Origin: Seonamhaeicola sp. S2-3
GTDB lineage: Bacteria > Bacteroidota > Bacteroidia > Flavobacteriales > Flavobacteriaceae
NCBI RefSeq assembly: GCF_001971785.1
Contig: NZ_CP019389.1
Span: 3,421,001 to 3,485,000, forward strand
Direction of reading: 5' to 3'
Length of the DNA: 64,000 nucleotides
The notes under the pieces were generated by a model, which made no database searches, was not told the DNA's origin, and saw only the letters and a program-made list of their open reading frames with translations. The translations under genes and the position numbers were made by a program. Of the stretch, positions 6,520-23,895 are shown piece after piece; positions within the stretch are counted from its first letter, which is position 1; each line of letters opens with the position of its first letter.

Positions 6520-6543
6520 TTTTATTAAATATTTTTAGATTGA

Positions 6544-9135: not shown

Positions 9136-9160
9136 GTTAACAAGCATATTAACAGAATAA

Positions 9161-9189: not shown

Positions 9190-9291
9190 TTGTGGTTGGT
9201 TGGTTAGCTATCAATCCTTTGTATTTTTACAAATTCCTAAGGAAATCGTTTCAAATATAAAATATAGCACTTTGCAAACTATTAACAAATG

Positions 9292-9876: not shown

Positions 9877-9983
9877 TTTATAATTATAAAAACTTAATTA
9901 AAACTAAGTATTACGTTTAATTTTTCACTAGCTTTTCTATAATTGGCATAAATAATTGTTTAGCTGCATATTTATATAAAAAA

Positions 9984-10011
9984 AAGGCCTTAAGTAAATA
10001 CTTAAGACCTT
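9984..10011 (-). terminator. Terminator of the coiled-coil membrane protein gene
   Basis: A 12-pair stem with one mismatch (9984-9995 with 10000-10011) followed, on the minus strand, by a run of T. Confidence 0.75.
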
Positions 10012-10034
10012 GCTTTTAAGTGTTATTTTAAAGT

Positions 10035-10919
10035 TTACTTTAGTGTAAACTCTGAAGTTGATACTAAATCTTTTTCATTAAACACATTAACTATATATCT
10101 TCCTTTTTCAAATTTATCTTCTCCTTTGGCTGCAACAAACTCACAAACATTTAGGTTTGCATTTTCATAGTTAAACTTACTTATCACACTATAGTTTAAC
10201 GTTTTATCTTCAAACTGCACTTGCTCATTTAAACCTAAAGTATTGTTTTTTGGGTCTATTACTTGTATATACAACTCATGATCTCCTGCTTGTACTAAAC
10301 TGTTTTTTGCTACAGTAAAACATACTCTAATTTTATCTGTTCTTTTAGCTCTTTCTGTTGGTATTAATTTGCCTGATGTTCTTTCTATTACCCCAAATCC
10401 TTTTAAACCAACGGTTCCTAGTATAGAGGCATTTTCTACTACTTCGGCCAAAGCTGTATTTTGTACTAATAAAGAATCTGTAAACATAGTACGCTCTTCT
10501 AATTTAACTCTAGTACTGTCTAAAGAGGTAGCTAAATAACTATTCTCTACTCTTAAAGAATCGTTTTGGGCAAGCAATACATCCATTTCTTTTTGAAGTG
10601 ATAAATATTTCTTTTTATATCTCCATAAACTTCTAACATTAGTTTCTGATATTTTTAAAGAATCTATTAAACCTTGAATTCTTTCTCTAGCCTCTACCAA
10701 TTCTTTACTTTTAGCTTCATTTTCTCCAATAGCTTCATCATATTGTTTTGCCATGGCATTTAAATCATTCATTACTAACTCTTTTTCTTGAGTTAGCTCA
10801 TTTTGAATCTTTTTACTATTGCTATAAAGGTTTATTGTATAAAAACCTACAGCTAAAAATAACGCCAAAGCAATTCCTAATGCTATTTTTAAACCATTAC
10901 TACTTTTTTTACCTTCCAT
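10035..10919 (-). CDS. Membrane-anchored coiled-coil protein of unknown function
   Basis: 294 residues. One membrane segment near the N-terminus (about 9-32, IALGIALALFLAVGFYTINLY) is followed by a long coiled coil (about 35-150, rich in Glu, Lys, Leu). A predicted beta-rich C-terminal domain (about 165-294) includes KIRVCFTVAKNSL and GRYIVNVFNEKDLVSTSEFTL. Similar flavobacterial proteins are often labelled as chromosome-partitioning proteins, but nothing here (no P-loop) supports that name. Most of the protein is likely outside the cytoplasm. It is monocistronic with its own terminator. Confidence 0.6.
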   Translation of the reverse strand: MEGKKSSNGLKIALGIALALFLAVGFYTINLYSNSKKIQNELTQEKELVMNDLNAMAKQYDEAIGENEAKSKELVEARERIQGLIDSLKISETNVRSLWRYKKKYLSLQKEMDVLLAQNDSLRVENSYLATSLDSTRVKLEERTMFTDSLLVQNTALAEVVENASILGTVGLKGFGVIERTSGKLIPTERAKRTDKIRVCFTVAKNSLVQAGDHELYIQVIDPKNNTLGLNEQVQFEDKTLNYSVISKFNYENANLNVCEFVAAKGEDKFEKGRYIVNVFNEKDLVSTSEFTLK

Positions 10920-11024
10920 AATTATTTTTTTAATGTTTGTGGTTTCTGTATTAAGTTTAATTTTTATTGTTTCTTTTTTTAATGCTATAAATAAATGTAT
11001 TTTTATTAAAATTAAAAAACAAAA

Positions 11025-12035
11025 ATGAATAAACTAGTTTTATTTAATAATACGTATAAAAATAAACTTTTAAATAAACGAGTTGGCGAATCCAAATTCG
11101 GTCAACATGTTAAATTATTAACTCGCATTTCTAACATATACGAACAACTTAAAAATTTAGATGTTACGTATGTAATTTTTGGTATTCCTGAAGATGTAGG
11201 CGTTTTTGCTAACCTGGGAAATACAGGTACAGCAAAGACTTGGGAGGCTACACTTAAAAGTTTGTTAAATATTCAAAGTAATAAATACAATAAAGCTAAA
11301 AAGGTACTAATATTAGGTTATTTAGATTTTAGTGATGAAATAAATCAAATATCTAAACTAGATAATTCTAAAAAAGAAGACCTGAAAATAGCTAGAGATA
11401 TAGTTGCTGATATAGATAAACACGTTACGTTTTTGATAAATCAAATTGTTATGGCTGGTAAAAAGCCAATAATAATTGGTGGAGGTCATAACAATGCGTA
11501 TGGCAATATTAAAGGAACTTCTTTAGCTTTTAAAAAGCCAATTAATGTAGTTAATTTTGATGCTCATGCCGATTTTAGACCTGAAGAAGGACGCCATAGT
11601 GGTAATGGTTTTAGTTACGCTTTCGCTGGAGGTTTTTTAAATAAATATTTTGCTTTTGGTTTGCATGAAAATTATAATTCTGATAAAACGTTTACTACAC
11701 TTAGCAAAGTTAAAGCTGTTAAATACAACACCTATGAAAGCATTGAAATTAGACAAGAATTAGACTTTAACGCTCAAATGCAACGCGCTTTAAAACATGT
11801 TTCTAAGGATGTTTTTGGAATTGAAATTGATTGTGATGCTATTGAAAATATACCTAGTAGTGCCATGACACCAAGCGGATTTAGTGTTAGCAAAGCCAGA
11901 AAATTTGTGAACTTTTTTGGCAAACATGAAAATGCTCAATATCTACATATTTGTGAAGCGGCTCCTAAAAGAAAAACTGAAGCCCAAGTTGGCAAACTTA
12001 TTACTTATTTAATAACCGATTTTATTAAAGCCTAG
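11025..12035 (+). CDS. Ureohydrolase family protein, formimidoylglutamase/arginase-like
   Basis: A 336-residue metalloenzyme of the arginase/agmatinase/formimidoylglutamase superfamily. The dimanganese ligands are visible: H155 in IGGGHNNAYG, D179-H181-D183 in NFDAHADF, and D269/D271 in GIEIDCDAIE. Bacteroidota members with this GGGHNN block are usually called formimidoylglutamase (the HutG step of histidine degradation), but no hut genes are adjacent. The exact amidino substrate is therefore uncertain. After the TAG the frame continues open for 33 more codons (see findings). Confidence 0.82.
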   Translation: MNKLVLFNNTYKNKLLNKRVGESKFGQHVKLLTRISNIYEQLKNLDVTYVIFGIPEDVGVFANLGNTGTAKTWEATLKSLLNIQSNKYNKAKKVLILGYLDFSDEINQISKLDNSKKEDLKIARDIVADIDKHVTFLINQIVMAGKKPIIIGGGHNNAYGNIKGTSLAFKKPINVVNFDAHADFRPEEGRHSGNGFSYAFAGGFLNKYFAFGLHENYNSDKTFTTLSKVKAVKYNTYESIEIRQELDFNAQMQRALKHVSKDVFGIEIDCDAIENIPSSAMTPSGFSVSKARKFVNFFGKHENAQYLHICEAAPKRKTEAQVGKLITYLITDFIKA

Positions 12036-12057
12036 TTACAATATCAATCACACCCTC

Positions 12058-12126
12058 TTGGACTTGTTTTAGATTTACTTAAAGAGGACTTCTCTTATGG
12101 TGCTTTAGATTCTAAAACAAGTTCAA
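12058..12126. repeat. Imperfect long inverted repeat between convergent genes
   Basis: The arm TTGGACTTGTTTTAGA (12058-12073) matches the complement of 12111-12126 at 15 of 16 positions, with a 37-base loop. The core ACTTGTTTTAG resembles the short palindrome at 55032-55048, so both may be REP-like sequences. It could also act as a terminator for either convergent gene. Confidence 0.5.
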
Positions 12127-12143
12127 AAAAACAATAGAAAAAA

Positions 12144-13826
12144 TTATTTGTTAGCTTTTAAAGAATCAATCTGTTTTTGAAGATTTTCAATTTGAATTTC
12201 TTTATCTGTTTTTATCTCAGTAGTATCTACTGTTTGTTCTACAATATCGATGTCTTTAGCTTCTTCAACATAATAATAACCAATACCTTCACTAGCTCTC
12301 CAAGCTTCACTTAATTGATCGTACACCGTTTTATCCCATTGGCTAGGGTGTTTAACATCTATCCAAACTACATCTCTATATTCACTATCTACCAAAGCTA
12401 AATCTGGTGTTGCAGAACCATCAAATTTTTCTGATTCATTTTCTCTAATAGCAGAAATGGTTCCTAAGAAAAACATACGTTTTCTACCTGCAATATTTTT
12501 TATATATGGTCTAAATTCTACAGGTTTATTAACAGACCAATCAACCTCTTTTCTAGACTCTATAACTTTTAATGGCATTGCCGAAACTCCGGCATATCCC
12601 TGTTTTTTAGATGCGTGGTCATAATAATAAAATTTATCACTGCCGTCTGCTGGAATAAATACGCTAAAGGTTAAACTGGTGCGCTCATCTCCTACGGGTT
12701 CTAATCCAAACCAATGATATAGCCCACTGTAGGCTCCAGTGTCTGTATCAGAAAAATCAAAATCTGTTACAAAAGGTTGCTGGTTTTGGTCGTCTGGTAA
12801 ATCAGGAATTTTTACTGCTGTTTCCATATTCCACGGTAAAGGGTCACTAAATCCTCCTAAAAATTTTAAAGACTCTGCTTGCAAACGTGACACCTTTTCA
12901 GCAAGTGTATTTTGACGTGTTAAAAAGGTGTGATTTTTCATTTCATCTGGACTAATGTAAGTGCCTTTGCCTATTAAAATACGCTCTAAATAATCACTAA
13001 AATCATGTTTGCCATTTTCAATTATCATTACACCACCAAATGTTGGATACGGAAAGAAAAAACCTTTCCATTTAATTAGGCTTACCACTTCTACCCATTG
13101 TCCATTATCATTTTTCATGTAATACGTATCACTAGGCTCTAAAGTAAATAACTGAAAAATATTAAATCTTTGTACTACAGCATTATAAGTATTTCTGCTA
13201 AACTTTAAAGATTCACCTATGGAAAACGTTACTGGAATTCTATTTTCACTAGAAAAACGTGGGAATGGTGTGGTACTAGATACAGCAAAAACCTCTTCGG
13301 TATTATCAGTTATACCTTGCCAAACGTATTTTTCTGTTGGTTGAATAGCCATAGTCCATTTATTTTCGTCATCAATTCTAACCAAATGAGGTAATGATAC
13401 ATCTTTGGTTTCGCCAACGCTTTCATTTGCCATAGAAAAAATGTTGCGTAATGGTTGAATACGTTCATTTTGCGTTAATGGTAATTCATTTATTTCAATA
13501 CGATTTAAGTTATTAAAAACATTATAGGTTTTCATATAATCGTACATTTTAAAATGCCAACCAACAACATATAGAATACCAAAGAAAATTATTAAAGCTC
13601 CCAAAACACCTAGCCTGCCACCCATACTAGAGGTTTTTCTAAATTTTCTAAGTCCGAAAAACAACACCAAACCACTTAAAAGAATGATGAAAATAAATTT
13701 TCTTAAAAACAGTAATGCTGGTTGGTAATCATCTCTTAAAACAAATAAAATAATGAGTATAACTAACCCTAAAACAATGGTGTTTCGTTTTTGTTTTCGG
13801 CCTTTATTCCAATAGTTTTTTAACAT
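12144..13826 (-). CDS. Unknown large membrane protein, last gene of the AAA+/NUDIX cluster
   Basis: 560 residues, not recognised. Three hydrophobic segments occupy the N-terminal 95 residues (about 17-33, 40-58 and 72-90). The remaining 460 residues are a soluble beta-rich region with many aromatic residues (for example WHFKMYDYMKTYNVF, ITDNTEEVFAVSSTTPFPRF, HWFGLEPVGDERTSLTFSVF). The C-terminus is a short coiled coil ending IQIENLQKQIDSLKANK. The soluble part follows membrane segments, but which side of the membrane it faces cannot be read reliably. It is the promoter-distal member of a minus-strand run starting near 21602. Confidence 0.6.
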   Translation of the reverse strand: MLKNYWNKGRKQKRNTIVLGLVILIILFVLRDDYQPALLFLRKFIFIILLSGLVLFFGLRKFRKTSSMGGRLGVLGALIIFFGILYVVGWHFKMYDYMKTYNVFNNLNRIEINELPLTQNERIQPLRNIFSMANESVGETKDVSLPHLVRIDDENKWTMAIQPTEKYVWQGITDNTEEVFAVSSTTPFPRFSSENRIPVTFSIGESLKFSRNTYNAVVQRFNIFQLFTLEPSDTYYMKNDNGQWVEVVSLIKWKGFFFPYPTFGGVMIIENGKHDFSDYLERILIGKGTYISPDEMKNHTFLTRQNTLAEKVSRLQAESLKFLGGFSDPLPWNMETAVKIPDLPDDQNQQPFVTDFDFSDTDTGAYSGLYHWFGLEPVGDERTSLTFSVFIPADGSDKFYYYDHASKKQGYAGVSAMPLKVIESRKEVDWSVNKPVEFRPYIKNIAGRKRMFFLGTISAIRENESEKFDGSATPDLALVDSEYRDVVWIDVKHPSQWDKTVYDQLSEAWRASEGIGYYYVEEAKDIDIVEQTVDTTEIKTDKEIQIENLQKQIDSLKANK

Positions 13827-13831
13827 AATTA

Positions 13832-13961
13832 TTAATTCTCTCTGTGTTTGTTAACGTATTTTATACTTAGTATCATAGCTATAATCATTAAAATAGGCAC
13901 TACTGGTCTTAATAAATTCTGCCAATGCCAAAAATTGTTATAGTCTAAATATCAATTTCAT
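13832..13961 (-). pseudogene. Small membrane-protein gene with an apparent frameshift
   Basis: An ATG at 13961 overlaps the stop of the upstream 177-residue gene (ATGA), which normally marks a translationally coupled gene. That frame stops after seven codons. One base over, a frame beginning YLDYNNFWHWQNLLRPVVP runs through a hydrophobic helix (PILMIIAMILSIKYV) to KHREN and a TAA at 13832. Joined by a single-base shift near codon 4-5 it gives a 42-43 residue single-pass membrane protein. Either the gene is broken, there is a sequence error, or the second frame uses an unusual start. Confidence 0.45.
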
Positions 13962-14491
13962 TTTAAATATCCTTTATCTTTTAAACGTTCTCTTGCACTT
14001 TTTTTAGGTTTTGCAGAAGACTCTTTATTTACATCTTCCTTTAAATCTTCTTCATTATTTGATTTAATATCTTCAATAATATCTTTTCCTTTTTCAATGG
14101 TATCTTTAACTATATCTTCTAAAGAATCGCTTTTTTCTTCAATAACTTTACCAGATTTTAACACAAAACTTGCAACATAAGTACCTATTAATGTTCCGGC
14201 AGAAATAGATGAAAACGCCGAAATTCCATTATAGCTAGTAAAAATTTCAAAAGGTGATATAAACTGAATGGCTAACCCAACTATCAAAAACAACCCAACA
14301 ACATAAACCAATCTTGGTAAAAAGGATTGTTTATAAACAAACCCTTTTTTATTACTAGGTTTCATTTGTAACTCTTTACTGTTGAATATTTTGTTAAAAA
14401 AACGATATAAAGAATTGCTTTGGGATTCTCTCCAGTAAATGAAAATTCCTAACAAAATTGCCGCTATAAAAATTACTAATTCTAATCCCAT
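13958..14491 (-). CDS. Unknown membrane protein with charged C-terminal tail
   Basis: 177 residues, not recognised. It has an N-terminal membrane segment (about 2-20, LELVIFIAAILLGIFIYW), a basic loop, a second (about 58-78) and a weaker third hydrophobic segment (about 90-112). A strongly charged, probably coiled-coil tail (about 115-160) ends KKSARERLKDKGYLK. It sits between the 411-residue protein and the 560-residue membrane protein in the same orientation, so it is a plausible membrane partner in the cluster. Confidence 0.6.
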   Translation of the reverse strand: MGLELVIFIAAILLGIFIYWRESQSNSLYRFFNKIFNSKELQMKPSNKKGFVYKQSFLPRLVYVVGLFLIVGLAIQFISPFEIFTSYNGISAFSSISAGTLIGTYVASFVLKSGKVIEEKSDSLEDIVKDTIEKGKDIIEDIKSNNEEDLKEDVNKESSAKPKKSARERLKDKGYLK

Positions 14492-14544
14492 ATTTTTTTA
14501 GTTAAAGGTGAATCGTTACGTTTAAAACTATTGGTCTGCGTTAT

Positions 14545-15780
14545 TTAAACATTGTTACTAATTGTTTCAACCACCCAATCTTTTAAAGATTCATCCCAAT
14601 TTTTATAATTGTTGTAAAAATCTTCTTTATTGTACCAGTACCAATATAATATATCTTTAGGAGAAATATTTACCAATAATTTCCAGATTAAATCTTGATG
14701 TTTTGCTTCTAAAGATGAATGTGGTTTATGCAGCGCATAAAACAGCATAGGGTCTACAATATCGGCTATTTTAAACTCATTACTTGTTTCTAACTTCTCT
14801 AAATAGCGTTCTACGCTCATTACTTTTTTTCTAGAATCTATATCTAATTTATTCAAATAGCTTTTAAACAAAATGGGGTTACTTAAAATATCTTTTATGG
14901 GGTGTTGTGGGTTCTTTAAATGCAACGCCAATTCATATTTTTTTATACGCTCATAACGCTTTGTTTCTACAACTTTTTCAAGGTTATACTCTATAATAAC
15001 ATGGTCTCTTAACTTAGCTATTAATTCTTTTTGATGAATATGATAAATAAGTACTTCATGGCTAGTATCTTTAATAGCTTCTTTATGCCATTTTTTATCT
15101 TCAAATACTACTATTGGAAATATAAAATCTCTTAATACATAAACACCTCCAAAAGCCCTAGTATAAAATGAACTCACCTTAAAATCTATTGCAGGAAGGT
15201 TTAAATCTCTTTCTCTTAAATCTCCATATTTCTTAGCTGAATTTAATAATTCTGCATGAATATCTTCATCAATAAAATTATAATTTTTTTTGAATTTTTC
15301 TATTAATTGGAGTTGCTCATTTTGCTGATGATATAAATTATTCATTAGATGAAAATTTATATGTATGGTATTGTATTTAAGCACATCTAGGGGTTCATAA
15401 AACACATCTATTTTTTGATCAAAATCAATACAAATGGCAGAATCTCTGGTAATATCTTTTATTTTTTCATCATAAATTTTAAAGATGTATTTCATCATTT
15501 CCCTATCAAAAGAATGAAAGGGTAAATACACTGGTTTTCCTTTTTGTAGCGGTGTAATAATAATACCATGAGGATTAGCTTCTCCGTTGTTAAGATAATT
15601 TAAATCTTGTTTTTCCTCTGCTATTTCTGGGCTCCACCCTATTCCATCAACTAAAAAAGTTTTTAGTTTAGTTGGGGTAAAACCAAGTTTTTCTAAACAT
15701 TTGTTGTAGCGTTCTACCAATTTCCCGCTTACAGGAATTAATTCGCTTTTGTATAGATTAGCTTTTATTAATTTTTGCAT
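14545..15780 (-). CDS. Unknown cytoplasmic protein of the AAA+/NUDIX cluster
   Basis: 411 residues, no family recognised with confidence and no signal peptide or membrane segment. The N-terminal third has GIGWSPEIAEEKQDLNYLNN and HGIIITPLQKGKPVYLPFHSFD. The middle holds INFHLMNNLYHQQNEQ and an IDFKVSSFYTRAFGGVYVLRDF stretch (parts shown). The C-terminus is helical with several Trp/Tyr (ILYWYWYNKEDF). It begins four bases after the NUDIX stop, so the two are almost certainly co-transcribed and co-translated. Confidence 0.65.
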   Translation of the reverse strand: MQKLIKANLYKSELIPVSGKLVERYNKCLEKLGFTPTKLKTFLVDGIGWSPEIAEEKQDLNYLNNGEANPHGIIITPLQKGKPVYLPFHSFDREMMKYIFKIYDEKIKDITRDSAICIDFDQKIDVFYEPLDVLKYNTIHINFHLMNNLYHQQNEQLQLIEKFKKNYNFIDEDIHAELLNSAKKYGDLRERDLNLPAIDFKVSSFYTRAFGGVYVLRDFIFPIVVFEDKKWHKEAIKDTSHEVLIYHIHQKELIAKLRDHVIIEYNLEKVVETKRYERIKKYELALHLKNPQHPIKDILSNPILFKSYLNKLDIDSRKKVMSVERYLEKLETSNEFKIADIVDPMLFYALHKPHSSLEAKHQDLIWKLLVNISPKDILYWYWYNKEDFYNNYKNWDESLKDWVVETISNNV

Positions 15781-15784
15781 TATT

Positions 15785-16369
15785 TTACTCTATCAACTTA
15801 TGAATTATAGCATATTGTAGGAGTACAATGGTTCTGGTATCAACTATTTCTCCGTTATGTAACATACTAACTGCTTTGTTAAAAGGTAGTTCTATTACTT
15901 CAATATCTTCATGTTCACTGCCCAATCCGCCACCTTCACTAACTTTCATTTCATCGGTATATTCTCCTATAAAAAAATGCATTTTTTCGGTCATAACTCC
16001 CGGTGATGAATATGCTTCATATACCTTTTTAACACTTTTTAAACGGTATCCTGTTTCTTCTTCGGTTTCTCTAATAATACAAGCTTCAGGATTATCTTTA
16101 TCTAACATTCCTGCTGTAACTTCTATTAAAAAACCATCGTCATTATCATTTAAAAAAGTAGGCATTCTAAACTGTTTGGTTAAAATAACCGTTTTCTTTG
16201 TTTTGTTATACAGAAGAATGCCAGCACCATCGCCTCTATCATATACCTCACGCATGGTGTTTACCCAACGTCCATCTTTCATCAAATAATCAAAATTGAC
16301 TTTATTTAAAATATAATAATTATCTGAAAGAAGGGTTGTTTCTATGTTTTTAATACGTTTTTTAGTCAT
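15785..16369 (-). CDS. NUDIX hydrolase, NudK (GDP-mannose hydrolase)-like
   Basis: I place the start at 16369 (MTKKRIKNIE), which overlaps the stop of the AAA+ gene by eight bases; an upstream ATG at 16399 would overlap more. The 194-residue protein has the Nudix helix AGMLDKDNPEACIIRETEEE followed by TGY. It also has the NudK/YffH-type downstream block with YSSPGVMTEKMHFFIGEY and EDIEVIELPF. Characterised NudK hydrolyses GDP-mannose and related nucleotide sugars. Here the gene is embedded in a cluster of unknown proteins, so the real substrate could be a cluster-specific nucleotide. Confidence 0.85.
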   Translation of the reverse strand: MTKKRIKNIETTLLSDNYYILNKVNFDYLMKDGRWVNTMREVYDRGDGAGILLYNKTKKTVILTKQFRMPTFLNDNDDGFLIEVTAGMLDKDNPEACIIRETEEETGYRLKSVKKVYEAYSSPGVMTEKMHFFIGEYTDEMKVSEGGGLGSEHEDIEVIELPFNKAVSMLHNGEIVDTRTIVLLQYAIIHKLIE

Positions 16370-18323
16370 CTTCAAATGTTTTTCTTGCTTCTTTTTCAAT
16401 ATTTAACTGGTTTACTCTAGCATCAACTTTTCGTTTAAAATCGGTATCAGCAATTGTAGCTACATTGTCTAGGTAGCGTACTACTTCTTGACGACGGATT
16501 TCTGAAAAATCAAGCCCCTTCATATTAGCTCTCATTAATTCTTGTAGCATATTGAATTTGGTTTCATAATCTTGTTTAAAGTATATTTCTGGATTTTCAA
16601 ACCAATCTTTTTCTAAATCAAAATCGGTTAAACGTAATGATACTGCACTTTGAATATTTCTAACATCTCTTGATGAAAAGAACGGAAATTCTTTTTGCAT
16701 AGATTTATATAAGTTGGCGTAAAACAAATGCTGGTTTGCGTTGAATTTTTTTTCTACGTCATCATAAATTTCATGAACACGTTCTTCTGAAGGTTTTTCA
16801 ATAGAACTCAATATTTCTCCCATATTTTTAGCCAATCCTTGATCTTGAAGGTATTTGTATTTTTTGGGGTGTTGCATGTTTACAAAGTCTGGCAATGTTT
16901 CATCTAGTTTTCGCCACCAAAGGTAATCTTGATCTAAAAAATCATGCTCTGTTCTAGCCCCATCTATTTTAAAACGTCCCTGTACACGAGAAATGACTGC
17001 TTTATCTAACATTTCTGGAAGATTTGTAAATAAACCAATAGAACTGTTTCCGTAATTTACTGCATAAGCGCCTTCGGTATATCTTAAAAAGACTCCTATC
17101 ACCTCTTTTACTCCTGCCGAAACCCCTTGTGCGGTACGTTCTTGTAAATTATTTTCGGCATCATCAATAGGCGCAAAAATTAATTTTGAAGGGTCTTGTA
17201 AGGGTTTCATCCATGCAACCATTTTTTCGGCAGAACCACCTTGAAAGGTACTGATTAAAGTATCTGGCATAGGATGAAAGAGAAACGGAATATCTAATGC
17301 ATCGCAATGTTCTTTAAGACGTGTAGCTATTGCTGCAATAAGCATACTTTTTCCTGTTCCTGGAATACCATAGCCCATAAATACTGGCATAAAACCACCT
17401 AATTCTTGAAAAGGATTTTTTTTAGCTGTAAAATCATAACTCAATAACCGTTCTGTTAAACGGCGTGCAAAATGTTTTGCATCTCGGTTTCCTACAATTT
17501 GTTCAAACTGAATTTTATTAAACTCTACACTTTTAGCGGCGCCTTGAAATACATTATTCCACCCCGATAATGCAAACTCTGAATTTTCTAATTTATAGGT
17601 TCTATCTTCAATGGTTTCTGTGTACTCTAAACTATTTTTTCTGAGTTGAATTTCATCTATTAAAGCTTCAAAATAAACCACTGTAAAGTTGATAACATCT
17701 TTATCTGATTTAATAATTTCTGGATGACCTAAATACTTATTGTAATAATATAAACTACAGGAAATACCTTTATTGGGTGATAATATTGATACTTCTGGAA
17801 TGCCTGCAAATTTTTGTTTCATCACACTTAAATCATCAGAGGCATGTGGTTTTAAATCGTGCAAAATTTTATAAGCCATAGAAAACAACATAAAAGCCGT
17901 ACCGGTGTGCATTTTGCTTTCAAATTCTCTTTTTCCTTTTGTATCTAAAGCAGATTTGTTTTCATTTAAACTAGATAAACCTGAGGCATCAGAATAACTA
18001 TCTTTAATCCAAATGCCTAGTGTTATACCTTCTTGAACTGCAAAAAGGGTTTGATTTAAAAAAATTGGAATTGCTACTGAATCTGGTAAAAGTCGTTTTT
18101 TTAAAGCTAGTATAGTTTTAGATACAGAGGTGATTTCTGTGGTTCTACTCCCGTTGTTGGCTCGGGATAGATATAATAAAATAGATTCATCTTTACCATT
18201 ATTATCCCGATTTTTTGCTCTAGAGCTTTGTTCCCATTGGATACTTTTAAGATAAGATGTTGCTTCATCTCGAAGCATATCTAATTCTGCTTGTTTTATA
18301 GGAAATGTTGAGTTGTGTTCCAT
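16362..18323 (-). CDS. AAA+ ATPase with long unknown N-terminal domain
   Basis: 653 residues. The first 260 residues are an unrecognised, mostly helical region. The AAA+ module follows: Walker A GYGIPGTGKS (317-326), Walker B LIFAPIDDAE with D387/D388, sensor-1/arginine-finger block GLFTNLPEMLD then SRVQGRF (430-451). A helical C-terminal part (about 455-653) follows. The TNLPEMLD-AVISR layout is that of the classical AAA clade (FtsH, Cdc48), suggesting a ring-shaped remodelling motor. No protease or nuclease motif is visible. It overlaps the NUDIX gene, so partnership is likely. The repeat at 18337-18362 abuts its start. Confidence 0.8.
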   Translation of the reverse strand: MEHNSTFPIKQAELDMLRDEATSYLKSIQWEQSSRAKNRDNNGKDESILLYLSRANNGSRTTEITSVSKTILALKKRLLPDSVAIPIFLNQTLFAVQEGITLGIWIKDSYSDASGLSSLNENKSALDTKGKREFESKMHTGTAFMLFSMAYKILHDLKPHASDDLSVMKQKFAGIPEVSILSPNKGISCSLYYYNKYLGHPEIIKSDKDVINFTVVYFEALIDEIQLRKNSLEYTETIEDRTYKLENSEFALSGWNNVFQGAAKSVEFNKIQFEQIVGNRDAKHFARRLTERLLSYDFTAKKNPFQELGGFMPVFMGYGIPGTGKSMLIAAIATRLKEHCDALDIPFLFHPMPDTLISTFQGGSAEKMVAWMKPLQDPSKLIFAPIDDAENNLQERTAQGVSAGVKEVIGVFLRYTEGAYAVNYGNSSIGLFTNLPEMLDKAVISRVQGRFKIDGARTEHDFLDQDYLWWRKLDETLPDFVNMQHPKKYKYLQDQGLAKNMGEILSSIEKPSEERVHEIYDDVEKKFNANQHLFYANLYKSMQKEFPFFSSRDVRNIQSAVSLRLTDFDLEKDWFENPEIYFKQDYETKFNMLQELMRANMKGLDFSEIRRQEVVRYLDNVATIADTDFKRKVDARVNQLNIEKEARKTFEDD

Positions 18324-18336
18324 TTTTAGTATTCAG

Positions 18337-18362
18337 TTTGCAGCCTTCAGTATTCAGTTAAA
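18337..18362. repeat. Short direct repeats beside the IVP cassette
   Basis: Two copies of AGTATTCAGTT (read on the plus strand) separated by TGCAGCCTTC lie just upstream of the AAA+ start codon. They resemble, but are not identical to, the GGCAGTATACAG tandem repeat on the other side of the IVP cassette at 18973-19026. Confidence 0.6.
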
Positions 18363-18391
18363 AACACCTAAAGCATGTGGTTTTACCTAAT

Positions 18392-18751
18392 CTATTTAAA
18401 TTTATCAGGATTATTCATCATGTAATTAATAAGCTTACCAATTTCTTCACTTTTACTTAATAAATCTCGTTTCTTTGCATTTGAAATATAATTGCAAGCT
18501 TCGGCAAAATCAAGCCAAAGTTGGGTTTCAGTATTTTCACTATCAGCATCAGATAATTTACTTTTAAAATGCTTTATATATTGTCTTTTTCTGTAACTTT
18601 CTGCTATATTTGAACAAACAGACCTGCTAGAACGTATTATTTGTGATGTTAAAGAAAATGTTTCAGATTTTGGAAACTCTTTAGTTAAATGAAATATTTC
18701 CATTGCTAAATCAAATCCTTTTTGAAAAGCTAAAAGTGTTCTAAAACTCAT
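18392..18751 (-). CDS. Four-helix-bundle protein (23S rRNA intervening-sequence protein, S23/IVP family)
   Basis: 119 residues with the IVP/S23 pattern: LLAFQKGFDLAMEIF in helix 1, LTSQIIRSSRSVCSNIAES (the conserved Arg/Ser-rich turn) in helices 2-3 and ETQLWLDFAEACNYIS in helix 4. Family members were first seen inside 23S rRNA intervening sequences and are common as stand-alone genes in Bacteroidota. They are related in fold to the Avd protein of diversity-generating retroelements. There is no rRNA here. It splits the AAA+ gene from the 356-residue gene and is flanked by short repeats, so it looks like a later insertion. Confidence 0.85.
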   Translation of the reverse strand: MSFRTLLAFQKGFDLAMEIFHLTKEFPKSETFSLTSQIIRSSRSVCSNIAESYRKRQYIKHFKSKLSDADSENTETQLWLDFAEACNYISNAKKRDLLSKSEEIGKLINYMMNNPDKFK

Positions 18752-18929
18752 CTACTATTCTCTTTTTTTAATATTCCTTCAACAGCTTCAGCAATGTGTG
18801 TTGAATAAAGAGCAATATGCTCTGCTGCACTTAAACTATCTGGTTTTTTTCTATTAACACAGGGCTTATCTTAATTGCAACATTAATAACAAGATCTTTA
18901 TACTCTTCTGGTGATAATTCTAAACTCAT
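18748..18929 (-). CDS. Small gene coupled to the IVP gene, with -1 frameshift at A AAA AAC
   Basis: An ATG at 18929 opens MSLELSPEEYKDLVINVAIK and continues to ISPVLIEKN before a stop after 32 codons. In the -1 frame coding resumes with PDSLSAAEHIALYSTHIAEA and ends in a TGA that overlaps the IVP start (ATGA). The switch point is the heptamer A AAA AAC (18849-18843), a canonical -1 slippery site. Fused, the product is 60 residues, mostly helical. It may be a real recoding event, a one-base deletion in a pseudogene, or a sequencing error in a 7-A run. Function unknown; its partnership with the IVP protein is inferred from the overlap. Confidence 0.5.
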
Positions 18930-18972
18930 ATTAATATTTTATTTTCAAACTTTTAATTAATTTATATTTAGG

Positions 18973-19026
18973 ACTGCCTACTGTATACTGCCTACTGTAT
19001 ACTGCCAACTGTATACTGCCAACTGC
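18973..19026. repeat. 14-bp tandem repeat (GGCAGTATACAGTW)
   Basis: On the minus strand three full units GGCAGTATACAGT(T/A) and a partial unit lie directly downstream of the 356-residue gene's stop. With the repeats at 18337-18362 they bracket the IVP cassette. Confidence 0.8.
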
Positions 19027-19029
19027 TAA

Positions 19030-20100
19030 CTATTTATTAACCAATTGTTCTATCTTTAAACCTGCCATTTCTATGGGTGGTTTAGCTAGATTATTCATTA
19101 TTTTTGGGGTTTTATTGTATAACAACTGAATGATTCTATGTGGTGCTAATACATAGTTTTGTTTAAAAACGTCATCCCAACGTTGCAATATTTGTTTGTT
19201 AAAAAAACTACCTTCTTTAAATTGGCTATTAGATTTTACTTCGTCTATTTTAAATGATAATGCGTAAGACTCTACAGGAATATTTTTTTCAATTATACCT
19301 TCTAAAATGGTATGTGTTAGTTCGTTTTCATCTTTTGCAAACATATTGTGTAGAGGTCCTAAATCAATACGTTTTATAAGTTTTGGATGTACTTTTTCTA
19401 ATTTTCTATCAATGCCATAAGCCATTGTATCTAAATTCATTTTTCTATCGGCTGAATGTTTTAAAACCTCATATATTTCATCTTTATAATCGTTTATTCT
19501 ATTCCCATCATAATTGAAATACATAAAACATACAAATGGGCGGTTATTGGCTACATCATAAAAACTCCAACTTGTTAGTAAATCTGCATTAGAGCCTTTT
19601 GGTGCATTAATGATTTTACCTTGCACAAAGCGGTTAAATATATACTGTTTATTAACTGATGAATAGTAAACAATAGATGCTGCTTTAAATAGTTTACTGC
19701 GTTTAATAGGTTCTTTTTTTCGCATTAAAGTATCTAGAAACTCTTCTTGTAGAACGCTTATTGGGGTTAGTTTGTCTAAATAATCATCGCGTAATTCTAA
19801 ATCGTTAAACAGGTATCTGAATTCTAAATAATTAGGAAAACCAGACTCTGTTAAATCTACCTTCATATTGTCTTCTTGGTCATACATGTATTTAACTCGC
19901 ATAGCTTCAATGGAATACAACAATAAATCGCAATATTGCTTAAACATATTGAGTTCCTGATTATTAACAAGTTTATTACGCTGTACAGCCACAATAAGTT
20001 CTTTAAATACAAAATCTACCATTTTATGGTAAAATATGTAATGTTCTTTAGAGTCTAAGGTTGCAGAGTCTAAGGGTGTTGTAATGTGATTAATTGACAT
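19030..20100 (-). CDS. Unknown protein of the AAA+/NUDIX cluster, 356 residues
   Basis: Not recognised. A soluble, largely helical protein beginning MSINHITTPLDSATLDSKEH. Features are a Tyr/Phe-rich N-terminal helical region (about 20-90) and a central block with WSFYDVANNRPFVCFMYFNY (about 178-197), probably beta strands. A C-terminal part contains VESYALSFKIDEVKS and VLAPHRIIQLLYN. No catalytic motif is evident. It has the same orientation as the AAA+ gene, from which it is separated by the IVP cassette. Confidence 0.6.
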   Translation of the reverse strand: MSINHITTPLDSATLDSKEHYIFYHKMVDFVFKELIVAVQRNKLVNNQELNMFKQYCDLLLYSIEAMRVKYMYDQEDNMKVDLTESGFPNYLEFRYLFNDLELRDDYLDKLTPISVLQEEFLDTLMRKKEPIKRSKLFKAASIVYYSSVNKQYIFNRFVQGKIINAPKGSNADLLTSWSFYDVANNRPFVCFMYFNYDGNRINDYKDEIYEVLKHSADRKMNLDTMAYGIDRKLEKVHPKLIKRIDLGPLHNMFAKDENELTHTILEGIIEKNIPVESYALSFKIDEVKSNSQFKEGSFFNKQILQRWDDVFKQNYVLAPHRIIQLLYNKTPKIMNNLAKPPIEMAGLKIEQLVNK

Positions 20101-20167
20101 TTTTTAATATTGAGTGTACAAGTAAGCAGAAAATACATTTTGTTTTTGCTTTTGTTAGCAAGTAAGT

Positions 20168-20251
20168 GCGTTAAGGATTGTAGTGGAAAGCCCACAGCGT
20201 AGCGAGGACTTGCAACGGAAAGCCTGACCCCGCCCTAAGGCGGGGTAACGC
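20168..20251 (+). ncRNA. Structured intergenic element, copy 1 (candidate non-coding RNA or palindromic repeat)
   Basis: A GC-rich island in AT-rich DNA. GCGTT (20168-20172) pairs with AACGC (20247-20251) to close the element. Inside lie two similar blocks, GGATTGTAGTGGAAAGCC and GGACTTGCAACGGAAAGCC, and a strong hairpin CCCCGCC-CTAA-GGCGGGG (20228-20245). A diverged second copy is at 29964-30106 on the other strand, with a compensatory change in the closing stem. It lies antisense to and between two genes of the 12-21.6 kb cluster. I recall similar elements in other flavobacterial genomes. The Rfam Flavo-1 motif is the first thing to compare, but I cannot confirm identity. Confidence 0.5.
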
Positions 20252-20261
20252 CCTGTGTGTT

Positions 20262-21602
20262 TTAAGACAATAAATCGTCTTCTGTTGCTTCTGGTTTTGG
20301 TTTACCTTTTGGAGCATTATCTCCTTTTGGTTTATTTGCATCTGCTTTATAGTATTCTTCAAAAATTTCTTTCATATCAATACCGTAGCGTTCTGCAAAA
20401 TTCTTTTGAATATCTATATCTTTTTCTCTAATTTCTTGTAAAGCTTCGGCATAACTGCTGTAAACGCCTTGCATAACTTTTTCATGAACAGGTATATTAT
20501 CCATCATATCTTGACGTGCTTTGGCGCTTGCTGTATGCATTGCCGCTAGGGTTTCTCCAATATGCTCATCGGTTTTTACCCCTAAATGTTCTAGGATAGC
20601 TGCAAATTCTTGATCTGTACGAGCTTTTAAGGCTACTACGTAACCATCATAATACTTTAAGCGTTCTTCGGTATCACTTTTTAATTTAGCGCGGTGTGTT
20701 TGTAAATTGCTTCGTAAAGAGGTAAGTACCTTGATTGTTAAATTATGCTTGTGTACAAAACTGTCTTTACTTGCAGCCAATGTGGTATAAGCGTTTTTAA
20801 GTCCTTCTAATTCTTCTACCTTTTGTTCTAATTGTGTTACTCTACCAATGGCTTGTGCGTATTCTGCAGACTGTTTATCTGCAATATCTTCTAATTCTTG
20901 TCTGGCTTGTTTTAATAAGGCATAATGCTCTTCTAATTTTGTCTCTACTTCTTTCTTTTTTTCTAGTGCTTTTGTATGGTTTTTGGTAGCTTCTACAATA
21001 GCATCTTGAAGTTTATCTTCAACTTCTTTAATTTCTAGTTCTCTATTTTTTAAGCGAGTTACTGCTGCTTGACTTTTATAGGAAAGCTCACTTAAAAGTG
21101 TTTGAACATCTGCATTTTCAATACGCGCCTGAAACATTGCTTTGGCTTTATTATCGGCGGCAGCTCTTACTTTTTCTGCTTCTTTTAATTCTTCTTGTGC
21201 TTTTCTTATTTTACTCTTACGCCCCCAAAGGTTATTCCACCAAGTGTCTGGTTTAGCTTCTGCATCTTCAAGTTCAACTCTTGCACGTTCTAAAGCTTTT
21301 TGAGCGTCATCAATTACTTTCTGCTCTGTAGCGTTTAAAGAAGAGAATTTTTCAAATAAAATACCTACTTCGTCTTGATAATCTGTTAAATCTTTTATGG
21401 CATCTAAAAGGGTTGTTCTATCCTTTTCTGCCATATGAACCACATCATCTAAGGTAGCGTTTAATATTTTTTGGCGGACTTCAGGGTCATCTTCCTGCGC
21501 TAATTTAGATTTCATAGTGTCAATGGCTTTCCCCCAATTGACATCTACTTTTTCGGTTTTTTCGTTAGAATTGGTTTCTAATAAGTCAAAATCATCAGAC
21601 AT
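20262..21602 (-). CDS. Long coiled-coil protein, first gene of the AAA+/NUDIX cluster
   Basis: 446 residues from the preferred start MSDDFDLLETNS at 21602; an upstream ATG at 21629 would add nine residues of leader-like sequence. No signal or membrane segment. A helical N-terminus is followed by a Trp-bearing loop (KPDTWWNNLWGRKSK), then a near-continuous coiled coil rich in Ala, Glu, Lys and Gln. A C-terminal helical region (GVKTDEHIGETLAAMHTAS) leads to a disordered Lys/Pro tail ending EATEDDLLS. The general shape recalls TelA-type toxic-anion-resistance proteins, but I cannot support that assignment from motifs. It probably forms filaments or scaffolds. Confidence 0.6.
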   Translation of the reverse strand: MSDDFDLLETNSNEKTEKVDVNWGKAIDTMKSKLAQEDDPEVRQKILNATLDDVVHMAEKDRTTLLDAIKDLTDYQDEVGILFEKFSSLNATEQKVIDDAQKALERARVELEDAEAKPDTWWNNLWGRKSKIRKAQEELKEAEKVRAAADNKAKAMFQARIENADVQTLLSELSYKSQAAVTRLKNRELEIKEVEDKLQDAIVEATKNHTKALEKKKEVETKLEEHYALLKQARQELEDIADKQSAEYAQAIGRVTQLEQKVEELEGLKNAYTTLAASKDSFVHKHNLTIKVLTSLRSNLQTHRAKLKSDTEERLKYYDGYVVALKARTDQEFAAILEHLGVKTDEHIGETLAAMHTASAKARQDMMDNIPVHEKVMQGVYSSYAEALQEIREKDIDIQKNFAERYGIDMKEIFEEYYKADANKPKGDNAPKGKPKPEATEDDLLS

Positions 21603-21868
21603 AGTAAGGTTTGTGTTTAAGTTGAACAATTTTATGGGTAAGCAATTTCGTTAAAAAAGATGACTTTTAAAATTTAAATTACTCAAATAATTGGTATATA
21701 ATATCATTAAATTGTTACAAGTACATCATGTTTTCGATGAAATGCACGCTATAATTGTAAGACTTTTTATTAAAAAAAAGTAATCTAAACCCTTTGTATT
21801 GTAAGAAATCAGGCAAAAAACAAGACACTCTTATTAACAAATTTTGTTCATATTCTTTTCATTATTAG
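21603..21868. other. Intergenic region between divergent genes
   Basis: AT-rich spacer of about 300 bases (with the promoter that follows) separating the cluster's first gene from the plus-strand 74-residue gene. I see no open frame with coding bias. A promoter for the minus-strand cluster should be here, but I could not find a convincing TAnnTTTG box on that strand. Confidence 0.5.
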
Positions 21869-21900
21869 TTGTTTAGTGCTTGAATTTATTGTTATATTTG
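21869..21900 (+). promoter_or_regulatory. Bacteroidota-type promoter of the 74-residue membrane protein gene
   Basis: TTG at 21869-21871, a 21-base spacer and a perfect TAnnTTTG box (TATATTTG, 21893-21900) lie 31 bases before the start codon. Confidence 0.7.
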
Positions 21901-21930
21901 AAATGCTATTAACAAAATTCTACCAAACTC

Positions 21931-22155
21931 ATGTCACTTAACCTTACTTCATACTCTCTTCTTATTGCTGAGTATACCATACTTACTGTTTTAGTTATTG
22001 TAGTGATATTTTTTTCACTTCTTTTAATTTTAGGTATAAGAAAATCATATAAGTTAAAAAAGGAAAATGAACGACTTGATAAAATAAGTAAAGAGATTGC
22101 ACGTAAAAAAATTGAAGAATACAAAGACTTTACTGGAGGACATATGTACCAATAA
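21931..22155 (+). CDS. Small single-pass membrane protein, 74 residues
   Basis: One hydrophobic helix (about 10-37, ILTVLVIVVIFFSLLLILGI) is followed by a basic, charged helix (SYKLKKENERLDKISKEIAR) and a short tail ending DFTGGHMYQ. A clear promoter and a terminator bracket the gene, which supports its reality despite its size. The function is unknown. The arrangement (membrane helix then coiled, charged tail) suits a small membrane adaptor. Confidence 0.65.
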   Translation: MSLNLTSYSLLIAEYTILTVLVIVVIFFSLLLILGIRKSYKLKKENERLDKISKEIARKKIEEYKDFTGGHMYQ

Positions 22156-22169
22156 CAGGTATTATAAAA

Positions 22170-22196
22170 AATAAGCCTACTAAAAGTAGACTTATT
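22170..22196. terminator. Bidirectional terminator between the 74-residue gene and ettA
   Basis: A 12-pair stem with one mismatch (22170-22181 with 22185-22196), a 3-base loop, and A/T runs on both sides. Confidence 0.7.
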
Positions 22197-22203
22197 TACT
22201 GAT

Positions 22204-23895
22204 TTATCTTACTAGTTTTTTGTACTTTATTCGTTTTGGAATCAAATCTCCACCAAGACGTTTCTTTTTGTTTTCTTCGTAATCTGAAAAGCTACCTTCA
22301 AAGAAATATACTTGCGAGTCTCCTTCAAAAGCCAAAATATGCGTACAGATACGATCTAAAAACCATCTGTCGTGACTAATAACTACAGCACACCCAGCAA
22401 AGTTTTCTAAACCTTCCTCTAACGCTCGTAATGTATTAACATCTAAATCGTTAGTTGGCTCATCTAAAAGTAACACATTACCTTCTTCTTTTAAAGTCAT
22501 GGCCAAATGCAAACGGTTTCGTTCACCACCTGAAAGCAATTTTACTTTTTTGTTTTGCTCACTGCCAGAGAAATTAAATCTACTTAAATAAGCTCGAGAG
22601 TTGACTTGCTTACCTCCCATCATAACCAACTCTTGTTCATCACTAAAGTTTTGCCAGATGGTTTTCTCTGGGTCTATATTTGAATGACCTTGGTCTACAT
22701 AAGCTATTTTAGCAGTATCGCCAACTTTAAATTCGCCTTTATCTGGTGTTTCTTCACCCATTATCATTCTGAAAATGGTAGTTTTACCTGCTCCATTGGG
22801 TCCGATAACCCCTACAATTCCTGCTTGTGGTAATTTAAAATTTAAATCTTCATAAAGCAACTTATCATCATAACCTTTACTCACACCAACAGCTTCAATA
22901 ACATTGGTTCCTAAACGTGGGCCATTAGGAATATAGATTTCTAGTTTTTCATCAAGTTGTTTTTGATCTTGACTCAACAGCCTATCATAATTCTTTAAAC
23001 GTGCTTTTTGCTTAGTTTGACGCCCTTTAGCTCCTTGTCTAACCCATTCTAACTCTCGTTCTAAGGTTTTTTGACGTTTAGAAGCAGCTTTTCCTTCTTG
23101 AGCCATTCGTTTAGACTTTTGGTCTAGCCAAGAAGAGTAATTTCCTTTCCAAGGAATACCCTCTCCTCTGTCTAGCTCTAAAATCCAACCAGCAACATTA
23201 TCTAAGAAATATCTATCGTGAGTTACCGCAATTACAGTTCCTTTATATTGCGCCAAATGGTGCTCTAGCCAATGTACCGATTCGGCATCTAAATGGTTGG
23301 TAGGCTCATCTAAAAGTAGTACATCTGGTTCTTGAAGTAATAATCTACATAAGGCTACTCTACGACGCTCTCCTCCCGATAAAACGCCTATTTTTTTATC
23401 GCCATCAGGCGTTCTTAAGGCATCCATGGCTATTTCTAGTTTGGTATCTAATTCCCAAGCATTGGCTGCATCAATTTGATCTTGCAATTCTGCTTGGCGG
23501 TTCATTAGTTTTTCCATTTTATCAGGATCACTATATACCTCTTCTAAACCAAACTGATCGTTTATTTTATTATATTCTTCTAGAATTGCTACGGTTTCGG
23601 CTGCACCTTCGCGCACCACTTCCATAACAGTTTTTTCATCATCTAATTGAGGTTCTTGCTCTAAATACCCTACTGAATATCCTGGTGAAAAAACTACGTC
23701 TCCTTGATAGTTTTTATCTACACCAGCAATAATTTTTAACAAGGTAGATTTACCAGACCCATTTAAACCTAGAATACCAATTTTGGCACCATAAAAGAAA
23801 CTTAAATATATGTTTTTTAAAACGGGGGTGTTAGCACTTTGAAATGTTTTGGTAACACCCGACATTGAAAAGATTACTTTTTTATCGTCACTCAC
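22204..23895 (-). CDS. ettA: Energy-dependent translational throttle protein EttA (ABC-F)
   Basis: 563 residues with two ABC ATPase cassettes and no membrane domain. Walker A motifs are GLNGSGKST (about 39-47) and GPNGAGKTT. Signature motifs LSGGERRRVA and LSGGERNRLHLA are each followed by a Walker B LLLDEPTNHLD or LLLDEPTNDLD. The charged linker between cassettes and the short arm insertion fit EttA, which binds the ribosomal E site and gates entry into elongation according to ATP/ADP. The length matches EttA (555-565). A GATATTTG box at 24163-24170, upstream of the small gene that precedes it, may be the promoter of both. Confidence 0.95.
   Translation of the reverse strand: MSDDKKVIFSMSGVTKTFQSANTPVLKNIYLSFFYGAKIGILGLNGSGKSTLLKIIAGVDKNYQGDVVFSPGYSVGYLEQEPQLDDEKTVMEVVREGAAETVAILEEYNKINDQFGLEEVYSDPDKMEKLMNRQAELQDQIDAANAWELDTKLEIAMDALRTPDGDKKIGVLSGGERRRVALCRLLLQEPDVLLLDEPTNHLDAESVHWLEHHLAQYKGTVIAVTHDRYFLDNVAGWILELDRGEGIPWKGNYSSWLDQKSKRMAQEGKAASKRQKTLERELEWVRQGAKGRQTKQKARLKNYDRLLSQDQKQLDEKLEIYIPNGPRLGTNVIEAVGVSKGYDDKLLYEDLNFKLPQAGIVGVIGPNGAGKTTIFRMIMGEETPDKGEFKVGDTAKIAYVDQGHSNIDPEKTIWQNFSDEQELVMMGGKQVNSRAYLSRFNFSGSEQNKKVKLLSGGERNRLHLAMTLKEEGNVLLLDEPTNDLDVNTLRALEEGLENFAGCAVVISHDRWFLDRICTHILAFEGDSQVYFFEGSFSDYEENKKKRLGGDLIPKRIKYKKLVR

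Follow-up and report, generated by a model that had tools for sequence, protein, structure and literature searches.

Between positions 12144 and 21602 of a 64,000-nucleotide stretch of the genome of Seonamhaeicola sp. S2-3 lies a run of minus-strand genes that raises a simple question: do they form a single system and, if so, which of them belong to it? The whole stretch, referred to here as the window, corresponds to G000:C1:3421001-3485000 (contig NZ_CP019389.1), in a 3.75 Mb genome made up of a single contig. The original prediction for this locus, made from the sequence alone, listed seven consecutive same-strand genes, encoding a coiled-coil protein, a 356-residue protein (U356), an AAA+ ATPase, a NudK-like NUDIX hydrolase, a 411-residue protein regarded as unknown, and two membrane proteins of 177 and 560 residues (M177 and M560). 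All seven are intact open reading frames (ORFs) on the minus strand, running from 21602 down to 12144 (Table 1), although an eighth gene, for an IVP-type protein, lies inside the series, and the 411-residue protein is a member of the DUF6638 family. The conserved set is real, but its membership had been drawn wrongly: six genes form the core in this phylum, and the NUDIX and IVP genes are passengers at the junctions between them.

Conservation of the core across lineages

The genes for the coiled coil, U356, AAA+, DUF6638, M177, and M560 occur in the same order and on one strand in 21 of the 22 same-family loci compared, the window included (L053, the same locus as L074, was omitted). The exception, L073, shows three of the six genes, as the fetched stretch ends early. 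Because six genes keep their order and strand in this way, the gene set is not a chance arrangement. Homologues scattered through genomes and unlinked to the AAA+ gene were not seen. A strong AAA+ match was found in 18 of the 59 genomes around the window's own, with one further weak match at 7e-4, and the AAA+ is present in 5 of 395 genomes of the phylum and 5 of 198 of the class (the window's own genome being counted in all three samples). DUF6638 occurs in 4 of 296 phylum genomes, all four being among the five that carry the AAA+.

In L049-L051, the flanking genes of the window's operon were not found in the 20 kb fetched, and the set therefore occurs in other surroundings. Beyond the family, four loci of the same class (L069-L072, of which two come from one genus) have all six positions filled at tight spacing (in L072, 18, -4, -8, -1, and -8 bases between successive genes), and neither NUDIX nor IVP is found among the ORFs seen there. 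M560 shares 34-37% identity with its counterparts in these loci, and the M177 counterpart is recognised mainly by its position (21-24% identity). L071 has an additional 208-codon ORF ahead of the AAA+ gene.

Beyond Bacteroidota, ten records of a plasmid collection carry a relative of the AAA+, and the same ten carry DUF6638 (Vibrio, Sinorhizobium, Shinella, and Rhizobium); several of them are chromosome-sized, 'plasmid' being the label of the collection. Five of the ten were examined for gene order, and in all five, the coiled coil, U, AAA+, and DUF6638 genes follow one another as in the window. No NUDIX was seen in the Vibrio and rhizobial records examined, and two Sinorhizobium records have a DUF559-type ORF between AAA+ and DUF6638. 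With the window's proteins as the reference, BLASTP gave about 1e-67 for the AAA+ (Vibrio), 2e-32 for DUF6638 (Sinorhizobium), and 3e-11 for U356 (Vibrio; from 3e-11 to 8e-13 over Vibrio and rhizobia). The coiled coil and the first gene of the Vibrio and rhizobial sets have a C-terminal block in common, with pairwise E-values from 8e-7 (Vibrio) to 6e-4.

A larger sample was drawn from GTDB contigs, scanned by similarity to the Vibrio protein. The best 80 of at least 544 stretches confirmed at E ≤ 1e-3 were read as Alphaproteobacteria; at this threshold alone, the confirmed stretches may include other AAA proteins, and the sample is skewed to Alphaproteobacteria. In the Ruegeria family, the AAA+ is also present in 104 of 248 genomes, and loci were taken from 60 of these 104. 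Together with one viral contig, this makes a set of 141 loci, in 134 of which the quartet is complete, ordered, and on one strand, some of the other seven being cut by contig ends.

Three lineages have a membrane-protein gene after DUF6638: M177 and M560 in Bacteroidota, a DUF1523 protein, or a DUF2333 protein. Among 81 loci, the DUF1523 cluster was found in 33 and the DUF2333 cluster in 13 (one member of each identified by Pfam), and, by our own reading, the former would belong to Rhodobacterales and the latter to Hyphomicrobiales. Kinship between M560, DUF1523, and DUF2333 was considered, and no relation was found by hhalign profile comparison. In the Vibrio record, no membrane protein of these kinds stands after DUF6638.

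The viral contig (L155, 359 kb, from IMG/VR) has genes for DUF2333, coiled coil, U, AAA+, and DUF6638 next to one another at 5730-13214. The neighbouring genes have a phage-like character, with PHROG matches to a spanin (1.2e-4), an ATP-dependent (Clp-like) protease, a peptide deformylase, a DNA polymerase exonuclease subunit, and HNH endonucleases, and it also has two tRNAs. Its length and the collection it comes from suggest a jumbo phage. Three further scans returned this contig only, and a search of the AAA+ against phage records gave nothing at E ≤ 1e-5.

Table 1. Genes of the window's operon, in transcription order (positions in the window).
Feature	Position	Strand	Description
Coiled-coil gene, core gene 1	20262-21602	-	446 residues from ATG; TTG at 21629 possible, giving 455 residues
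U356, core gene 2	19030-20100	-	356 residues; without Pfam family; predicted fold of a homologue without Foldseek match
IVP-type gene, passenger, U356/AAA junction	18392-18751	-	119 residues; '23S rRNA IVP' four-helix-bundle; PF05635, 1e-30
AAA+ ATPase, core gene 3	16362-18323	-	653 residues; classical AAA+; PF00004, 1.1e-8; N-terminal part of about 265 residues and C-terminal part unassigned
NudK-like NUDIX, passenger, AAA/DUF6638 slot	15785-16399 (TTG) or 16369 (ATG, read from translation)	-	TIGR00052
DUF6638 protein, core gene 4	14545-15780	-	411 residues; PF20343, 1.2e-34, 120.4 bits against a gathering score of 27
M177 membrane protein	13958-14491	-	177 residues; N-terminal hydrophobic segments (by eye); accompanies the core in the window's phylum
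M560 membrane protein	12144-13826	-	560 residues; N-terminal hydrophobic segments (by eye) followed by a large domain; accompanies the core in the window's phylum

Gene exchange at the operon junctions

The site at which the window carries its NUDIX, between AAA+ and DUF6638, holds other genes elsewhere. It was studied in the 131 loci of the 141-locus set with distinct AAA+ proteins, a junction being counted as filled when a gap of 180-4000 bases contains an ORF of at least 55 codons, and as empty when the gap is below 60 bases. The AAA/DUF6638 slot is filled in 98 of these loci and empty in 19. The longest slot ORF lies on the operon strand in 84 of the 98, and on the other strand in 14. The 97 loci with an operon-strand slot ORF give 48 BLASTP clusters, many of them single-member, and some of the single-member ORFs may be false; recurring families occupy 13, 9, 6, 6, 5, 4, 4, and 3 loci. 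Four-base overlaps with the adjoining genes are frequent, the slot ORF starting at -4 relative to the AAA+ stop in 35 loci, and stopping at -4 relative to the DUF6638 start in 35. Eighteen loci, from 13 clusters, combine -4 at the AAA+ side with -4, -1, or -8 at the DUF6638 side. A second variable junction lies between the coiled-coil and U genes (CC/U): it is filled in 67 of the 131 loci, with 51 clusters, and its longest ORF is on the operon strand in 55. The U/AAA junction is filled in 15.

As for content, 27 of 55 coupled AAA/DUF6638 slot ORFs have hydrophobic segments, and 39 coupled CC/U ORFs include 19 with two such segments and 6 with more (by a simple window count). In 47 of the 55 coupled AAA/DUF6638 slot ORFs, G+C at third codon positions exceeds that at second positions (GC3 > GC2). 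A Pfam scan covered 53 of 70 slot ORFs, 17 being excluded on visual inspection as probable spurious frames or second ORFs. It matched the DUF559 nuclease nine times, PIN twice, and Mrr, ParE, Phd, ribbon-helix-helix, thioredoxin-like, and DUF2971 once each; most of the other ORFs of the 53 have no Pfam match at E ≤ 0.001. PADLOC matches among slot genes include a type IV restriction endonuclease (REase) and PDC-S31. The possibility that the two slots hold a toxin/immunity pair was examined and set aside: a CC/U cluster is also common to 3 of 67 pairs that share their AAA/DUF6638 cluster, and to 14 of 1418 that do not, with no clear linkage.

Turnover of the slot is fast. Six Ruegeria loci have AAA+ proteins that are 94.4-96.7% identical, and a slot ORF is common to none of their 15 pairs. 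Both the slot and the CC/U DNA show a mean aligned fraction of 0.00, all 15 pairs being below 0.2, against 0.99-1.00 for the four core genes; as controls, the 300 bases downstream of DUF6638 align over 0.74 (3/15 pairs below 0.2) and the 500 bases upstream over 0.70 (4/15). In the 22 kb compared between L113 and L129, no stretch of at least 100 bases is left unaligned outside the three core junctions, the U/AAA one being an insert in L113. Four other comparisons gave the same three junctions plus stretches at the locus ends, L116 also showing 1.7 kb upstream. Other genera give a less extreme picture: slot pairs aligned below 0.2 amount to 3/6 in Tateyamaria, 4/6 in Roseovarius, 3/3 in Sulfitobacter, and 10/36 in Mesorhizobium, where DUF559 is common.

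Slot content also follows the descent of the core poorly. With two clusters omitted from the sharing counts and from the joint tree test (DUF559 and one repeat-like cluster), a slot cluster is common to 1 of 18 pairs with AAA+ identity of at least 95%, 1 of 13 at 90-95%, and 61 of 1489 at 75-80%. When mapped on an AAA+ tree built with FastTree, the six clusters of at least three loci that remain need 19 changes, compared with a shuffled mean of 22.0 (18-24), and slot content thus carries little phylogenetic signal at most. Clusters of 6, 6, 5, 4, and 3 loci need 6, 6, 5, 4, and 3 changes, as if each member had entered separately. In base composition, coupled slot ORFs have a median G+C content 11.5 points under that of the AAA+ gene of the same locus, and 36 of 55 are more than 5 points under it, compared with 1 of 131 DUF6638 genes and none of 131 U genes. 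CC/U ORFs are 3.5 points under, a deficit that does not exceed that of the coiled-coil gene (3.8; 17 of 131 more than 5 points under). Taken as a pattern in Alphaproteobacteria, the operon junctions thus very probably acquire genes of foreign origin with translational coupling.

A search for one slot family in the 248 Ruegeria-family genomes gave seven matches, four directly behind the AAA+ gene and three elsewhere. Exclusivity of this family to the slot is thereby ruled out, and the cargo is therefore drawn from a wider pool, yet, with target size as the yardstick, the family appears to land in the slot far more often than a 1-kb target predicts. In one genome without an AAA+ match (L248:5994-6785), a single base separates a member of this family from an unrelated 467-codon ORF in front of it; such cargo may exploit other operons as well. 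Plasmids as the source of the cargo were also considered and not retained: one slot protein gave no match there, and another one weak match.

Some junctions have a different look. In L074 (2713-11839), the AAA/DUF6638 junction has grown to 9 kb and holds, besides NUDIX, a 1490-residue CheB-CheR-PAS protein, two opposite-strand AraC-type regulators, and an RDD protein; L073, from a related genome of the family, is similar, its DUF6638 lying outside the stretch fetched. In loci of Hyphomicrobiales (L132, L139, L149, L124, and L148), junctions are often repeat-like, with similar peptide strings in short ORFs, rather than genes, and are perhaps palindromic elements.

A putative remodelling machine and the alternatives

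What the core does has to be approached through its proteins. Among solved structures, the nearest profile relatives of the window's AAA+ are VCP-like (2.4e-10), Rpt4 (2e-8), and Vps4 (1.5e-6), essentially over the AAA domain. Its motifs GYGIPGTGKS, IFAPIDD, and FQGGS, which invariant alignment columns support, are presumably Walker A, Walker B, and a pore-loop-like element; among the 131 distinct AAA+ proteins, the Walker A pattern is found in 130, a pore-loop-like [YFW]QG[KG]S in 129, and a Walker-B-like IDD in 113. By its sequence, the protein groups with classical AAA proteins (remodellers and unfoldases). Classical AAA ATPases act on partner proteins by threading them or pulling them apart.

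The coiled coil, U356, M177, and M560 have no Pfam or NCBIfam match above cut-off. Alignments were built from 41 of 43 non-redundant coiled-coil sequences, 26 of 57 DUF6638 sequences, and all 53 U356 sequences, each with that of the window. The window's coiled-coil protein is modelled as all helix, and the best 50 of 601 rows of its Foldseek search are coiled-coil and helix-bundle proteins, none of them named PspA or ESCRT-III. The U356 homologue in L083 (19% identical to the window's) gave a confident mixed alpha/beta model (pLDDT 90.4, pTM 0.90). Against the PDB, its best E-value is 0.52, with query-normalised TM-scores of at most 0.17 among the best 50 rows, and against viral models, 0.02, with a TM-score of 0.09. 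Within the PDB and viral models searched, U356 thus looks like an unrepresented fold.

We propose that the locus encodes an ATP-driven remodelling machine, tied to the membrane, whose operon junctions serve as landing sites for exchanged accessory genes, a reading as a whole to which we give about an even chance. The coiled coil, U356, AAA+, and DUF6638 would act as a single protein-remodelling machine, in which the AAA+ ring would pull on or disassemble a coiled-coil scaffold, with U356 and DUF6638 as adaptors; the lineage-specific membrane proteins (M177 and M560, DUF1523 in Rhodobacterales, and DUF2333 in Hyphomicrobiales) would anchor it to the inner membrane. This scaffold-remodelling part, taken by itself, is plausible at somewhat under even chance, because the coiled coil is an obvious assembly-type partner and three lineages have a membrane-protein gene nearby. 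The junctions, chiefly AAA/DUF6638, would let unrelated accessory genes use the operon's transcription and translational coupling. Cargo would be exchanged rapidly, probably through recombination in the conserved flanking genes, since families recur and the overlaps are restored, and the window's NUDIX and IVP would be such riders. Empty slots in several lineages favour cargo as a free rider, and the repeated return of given families to one slot speaks for some function.

Several observations weigh against this proposal. The core persists without cargo where the AAA/DUF6638 slot is empty, in the Vibrio locus and L069-L072 as well as in the 19 loci counted above. The membrane proteins differ between lineages and none stands behind the Vibrio set, so that the membrane link is one of proximity only. 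The coiled-coil model is weak (pLDDT 69, pTM 0.48), and the protein has no Foldseek match at E ≤ 1e-3. Flanks outside the operon vary too, the 500 bases upstream being aligned below 0.2 in 3/3 Sulfitobacter pairs as well as in 4/15 of the Ruegeria ones. When DUF559 is counted, a slot ORF is common to 20 of the 47 pairs whose AAA+ proteins reach 90% identity, and DUF559 follows the AAA+ tree (4 changes, compared with 8.7 when shuffled). The largest slot cluster, of 13 loci, needs 10 changes against a shuffled 12.5 (10-13). Finally, the slot family sought in the Ruegeria family is located away from the slot in 3 of the 7 genomes that have it.

Variable effectors occupy fixed positions in known defence operons, and an anti-phage or anti-plasmid conflict system, with a sensing or restraining core and interchangeable slot genes as effectors, is the rival that survives best, although we consider it unlikely. 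The Mrr-type restriction endonuclease, the PIN and ParE toxins, the antitoxin families, the DUF559 nuclease, DUF2971, and the PADLOC matches in the slot all speak for it, as do the fast slot turnover and the patchy occurrence (104 of 248 Ruegeria-family genomes and 5 of 395 phylum genomes). Nevertheless, many loci have the core without cargo, most of the 53 slot ORFs scanned lack a Pfam family, 27 of the 55 coupled ones have hydrophobic segments, one slot family occurs elsewhere too, and the neighbours of the window's operon look like housekeeping genes rather than a defence island. A wider version, rather doubtful as well, would place the core in control of a modular system for conflict or stress: the AAA+/coiled-coil machine would restrain or deploy a co-translated, swappable slot effector, with alleles traded among genera by core-gene recombination, and the jumbo phage would have captured the core.

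Known defence loci resemble this one in part. For the genes of the window's operon, PADLOC gave weak matches only, the best for the AAA domain being IetA (7.8e-5). The resemblance to the anti-phage IetAS system is limited to the AAA domain: IetS is a protease beside IetA, and scans of the core showed no protease family in the operon. Defence-gene integration hotspots are likewise a fixed site with changing accessory genes, but the site here is inside an operon, between tightly spaced genes, and is often one gene long, with overlaps on both sides often restored (18 loci).

The original prediction compared the general shape of the locus to Ter/TelA-type stress modules. That the set is a Ter/TelA, PspA, or ESCRT-III/Vps4 system in disguise is improbable, even though its AAA+ belongs to the classical clade that includes Vps4 and has a coiled-coil partner. 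With Vps4/ESCRT-III and the archaeal CdvBC, the locus has in common AAA-domain matches to Vps4 and CdvC and an AAA+ beside a helical coiled coil, and, on our reading of the pore loop, a classical AAA+ with a pore-loop aromatic. It differs by its unassigned N-terminal part, of about 265 residues, in which no MIT domain was matched by Pfam in the three AAA+ proteins scanned. A Snf7 or PspA-fold substrate was not found either, with no Pfam match in 42 coiled-coil members (E ≤ 0.01) and no Foldseek match (E ≤ 1e-3, with a low-confidence model). Moreover, we know of no counterpart in Vps4/ESCRT-III or CdvBC for two further core proteins. PspA membership was rejected, as PF04012 is absent from both the genome scan and the coiled-coil family. 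Ter/TelA membership was rejected too: TelA, TerB, TerD, TerC, and TerF are unmatched among the core proteins scanned, and TelA is unmatched in the genome.

In the published descriptions, PspA and Snf7 neighbourhoods with an AAA+ also combine coiled coils and membrane proteins (PMC11237479), although that paper is not one of those that mention DUF6638, DUF1523, or DUF2333, and no PspA match was found here in core or genome. The Ter system, as described, consists of signal-synthesis enzymes, TerB/TerD, TerC, and TelA/TerF (PMC7824862); the likeness to it is one of general shape, with membrane and sub-membrane components, and the named components were not found among the core proteins here. In the open-access literature searched, outside which most subscription journals lie, no paper mentions DUF6638, four name DUF1523 and one names DUF2333, all under unrelated titles, and no described system with this quartet was found. 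The combination of AAA+, coiled coil, and membrane proteins in a kept order thus apparently represents, as predicted, an undescribed multi-gene set.

The passengers of the window and the meaning of the core

In the window's own family, the NUDIX occupies the AAA/DUF6638 slot in 15 of the 22 loci, and the IVP gene lies between U356 and AAA+ in 5. The set therefore travels without the IVP cassette in 17 of the 22, as it does in L069-L072, the outcome that the proposed neighbourhood survey was to look for. On these counts, NUDIX and IVP were rejected as core genes. The IVP-type gene is multi-copy, with five matches in this genome and 0-11 across the nine genomes searched. In L035 and L045, IVP copies or pieces lie in the DUF6638/M177 junction, as expected of a mobile insert. 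Judged by presence and absence alone, the window's NUDIX and IVP are likely the same riding phenomenon as the alphaproteobacterial cargo.

The NUDIX protein matches TIGR00052 with 162.7 bits (cut-off 79.55) and narrowly misses the NudK equivalog PRK15009 (222.9 against 234). It had been proposed as a working part that handles a nucleotide signal, which now appears very improbable. Its gene, read from ATG, does overlap AAA+ by 8 bases and lies 4 bases from the DUF6638 gene, as predicted, and it is in the slot in all seven sampled genomes of the window's genus, but unrelated cargo has the same spacing in relatives. Furthermore, it is missing from 7 of the 22 same-family loci, all with an intact core, three of these genomes having a TIGR00052 gene elsewhere and four none above cut-off; it was also not seen in L069-L072 or in the Vibrio and rhizobial records examined, and unrelated genes fill the same junction elsewhere. 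As the NUDIX is not supported as a working part, the idea of a nucleotide signal has nothing left to rest on.

The weakest alternative, that slot variability reflects a fast-drifting non-coding spacer or a gene-calling artefact, can draw on the partly repeat-like Hyphomicrobiales slots with their doubtful short ORFs, on the spurious ORFs that high-GC DNA yields, and on the 14 other-strand cases, but has hardly any chance against the recurring families, the Pfam-matched genes, the operon-strand bias (84/98), and the codon-position signal (47/55).

Around the operon, the flanking genes resemble housekeeping genes (names partly by eye). The small membrane-protein remnant of the original prediction could not be located: none was found on the minus strand of the interval among ORFs of at least 30 codons, and a short ORF with a membrane-like stretch, at 21931-22155 on the plus strand, lies outside. 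This ORF, between the operon and an ABC-F-like gene, contains a single hydrophobic segment and matches a Bacteroidetes FtsL-like family below the threshold (4e-4; 20.7 against 24.6 bits). Rfam matched nothing in 11900-22300, and promoter-like sites in the region show no excess (53, compared with 49.4, standard deviation 7.5, in shuffles). Against four congeners, the ratio of nonsynonymous to synonymous rates (dN/dS) is 0.02-0.16 where computable, a rough figure, as dS is mostly above 1.

A quartet whose order is kept across Bacteroidota, Alphaproteobacteria, and Gammaproteobacteria, and which is found whole in a jumbo-phage-like contig, should serve something general. No function is assigned to three of the four proteins, and one of these, through a homologue, has a confidently predicted fold that Foldseek leaves unmatched. 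The junctions, for their part, show one gene replacing another within an operon, and in 18 loci the gene in the slot has start and stop codons that overlap, or come close to overlapping, those of its two neighbours. In marine Rhodobacterales, the origin and the selective value of such in-operon cargo become directly testable.

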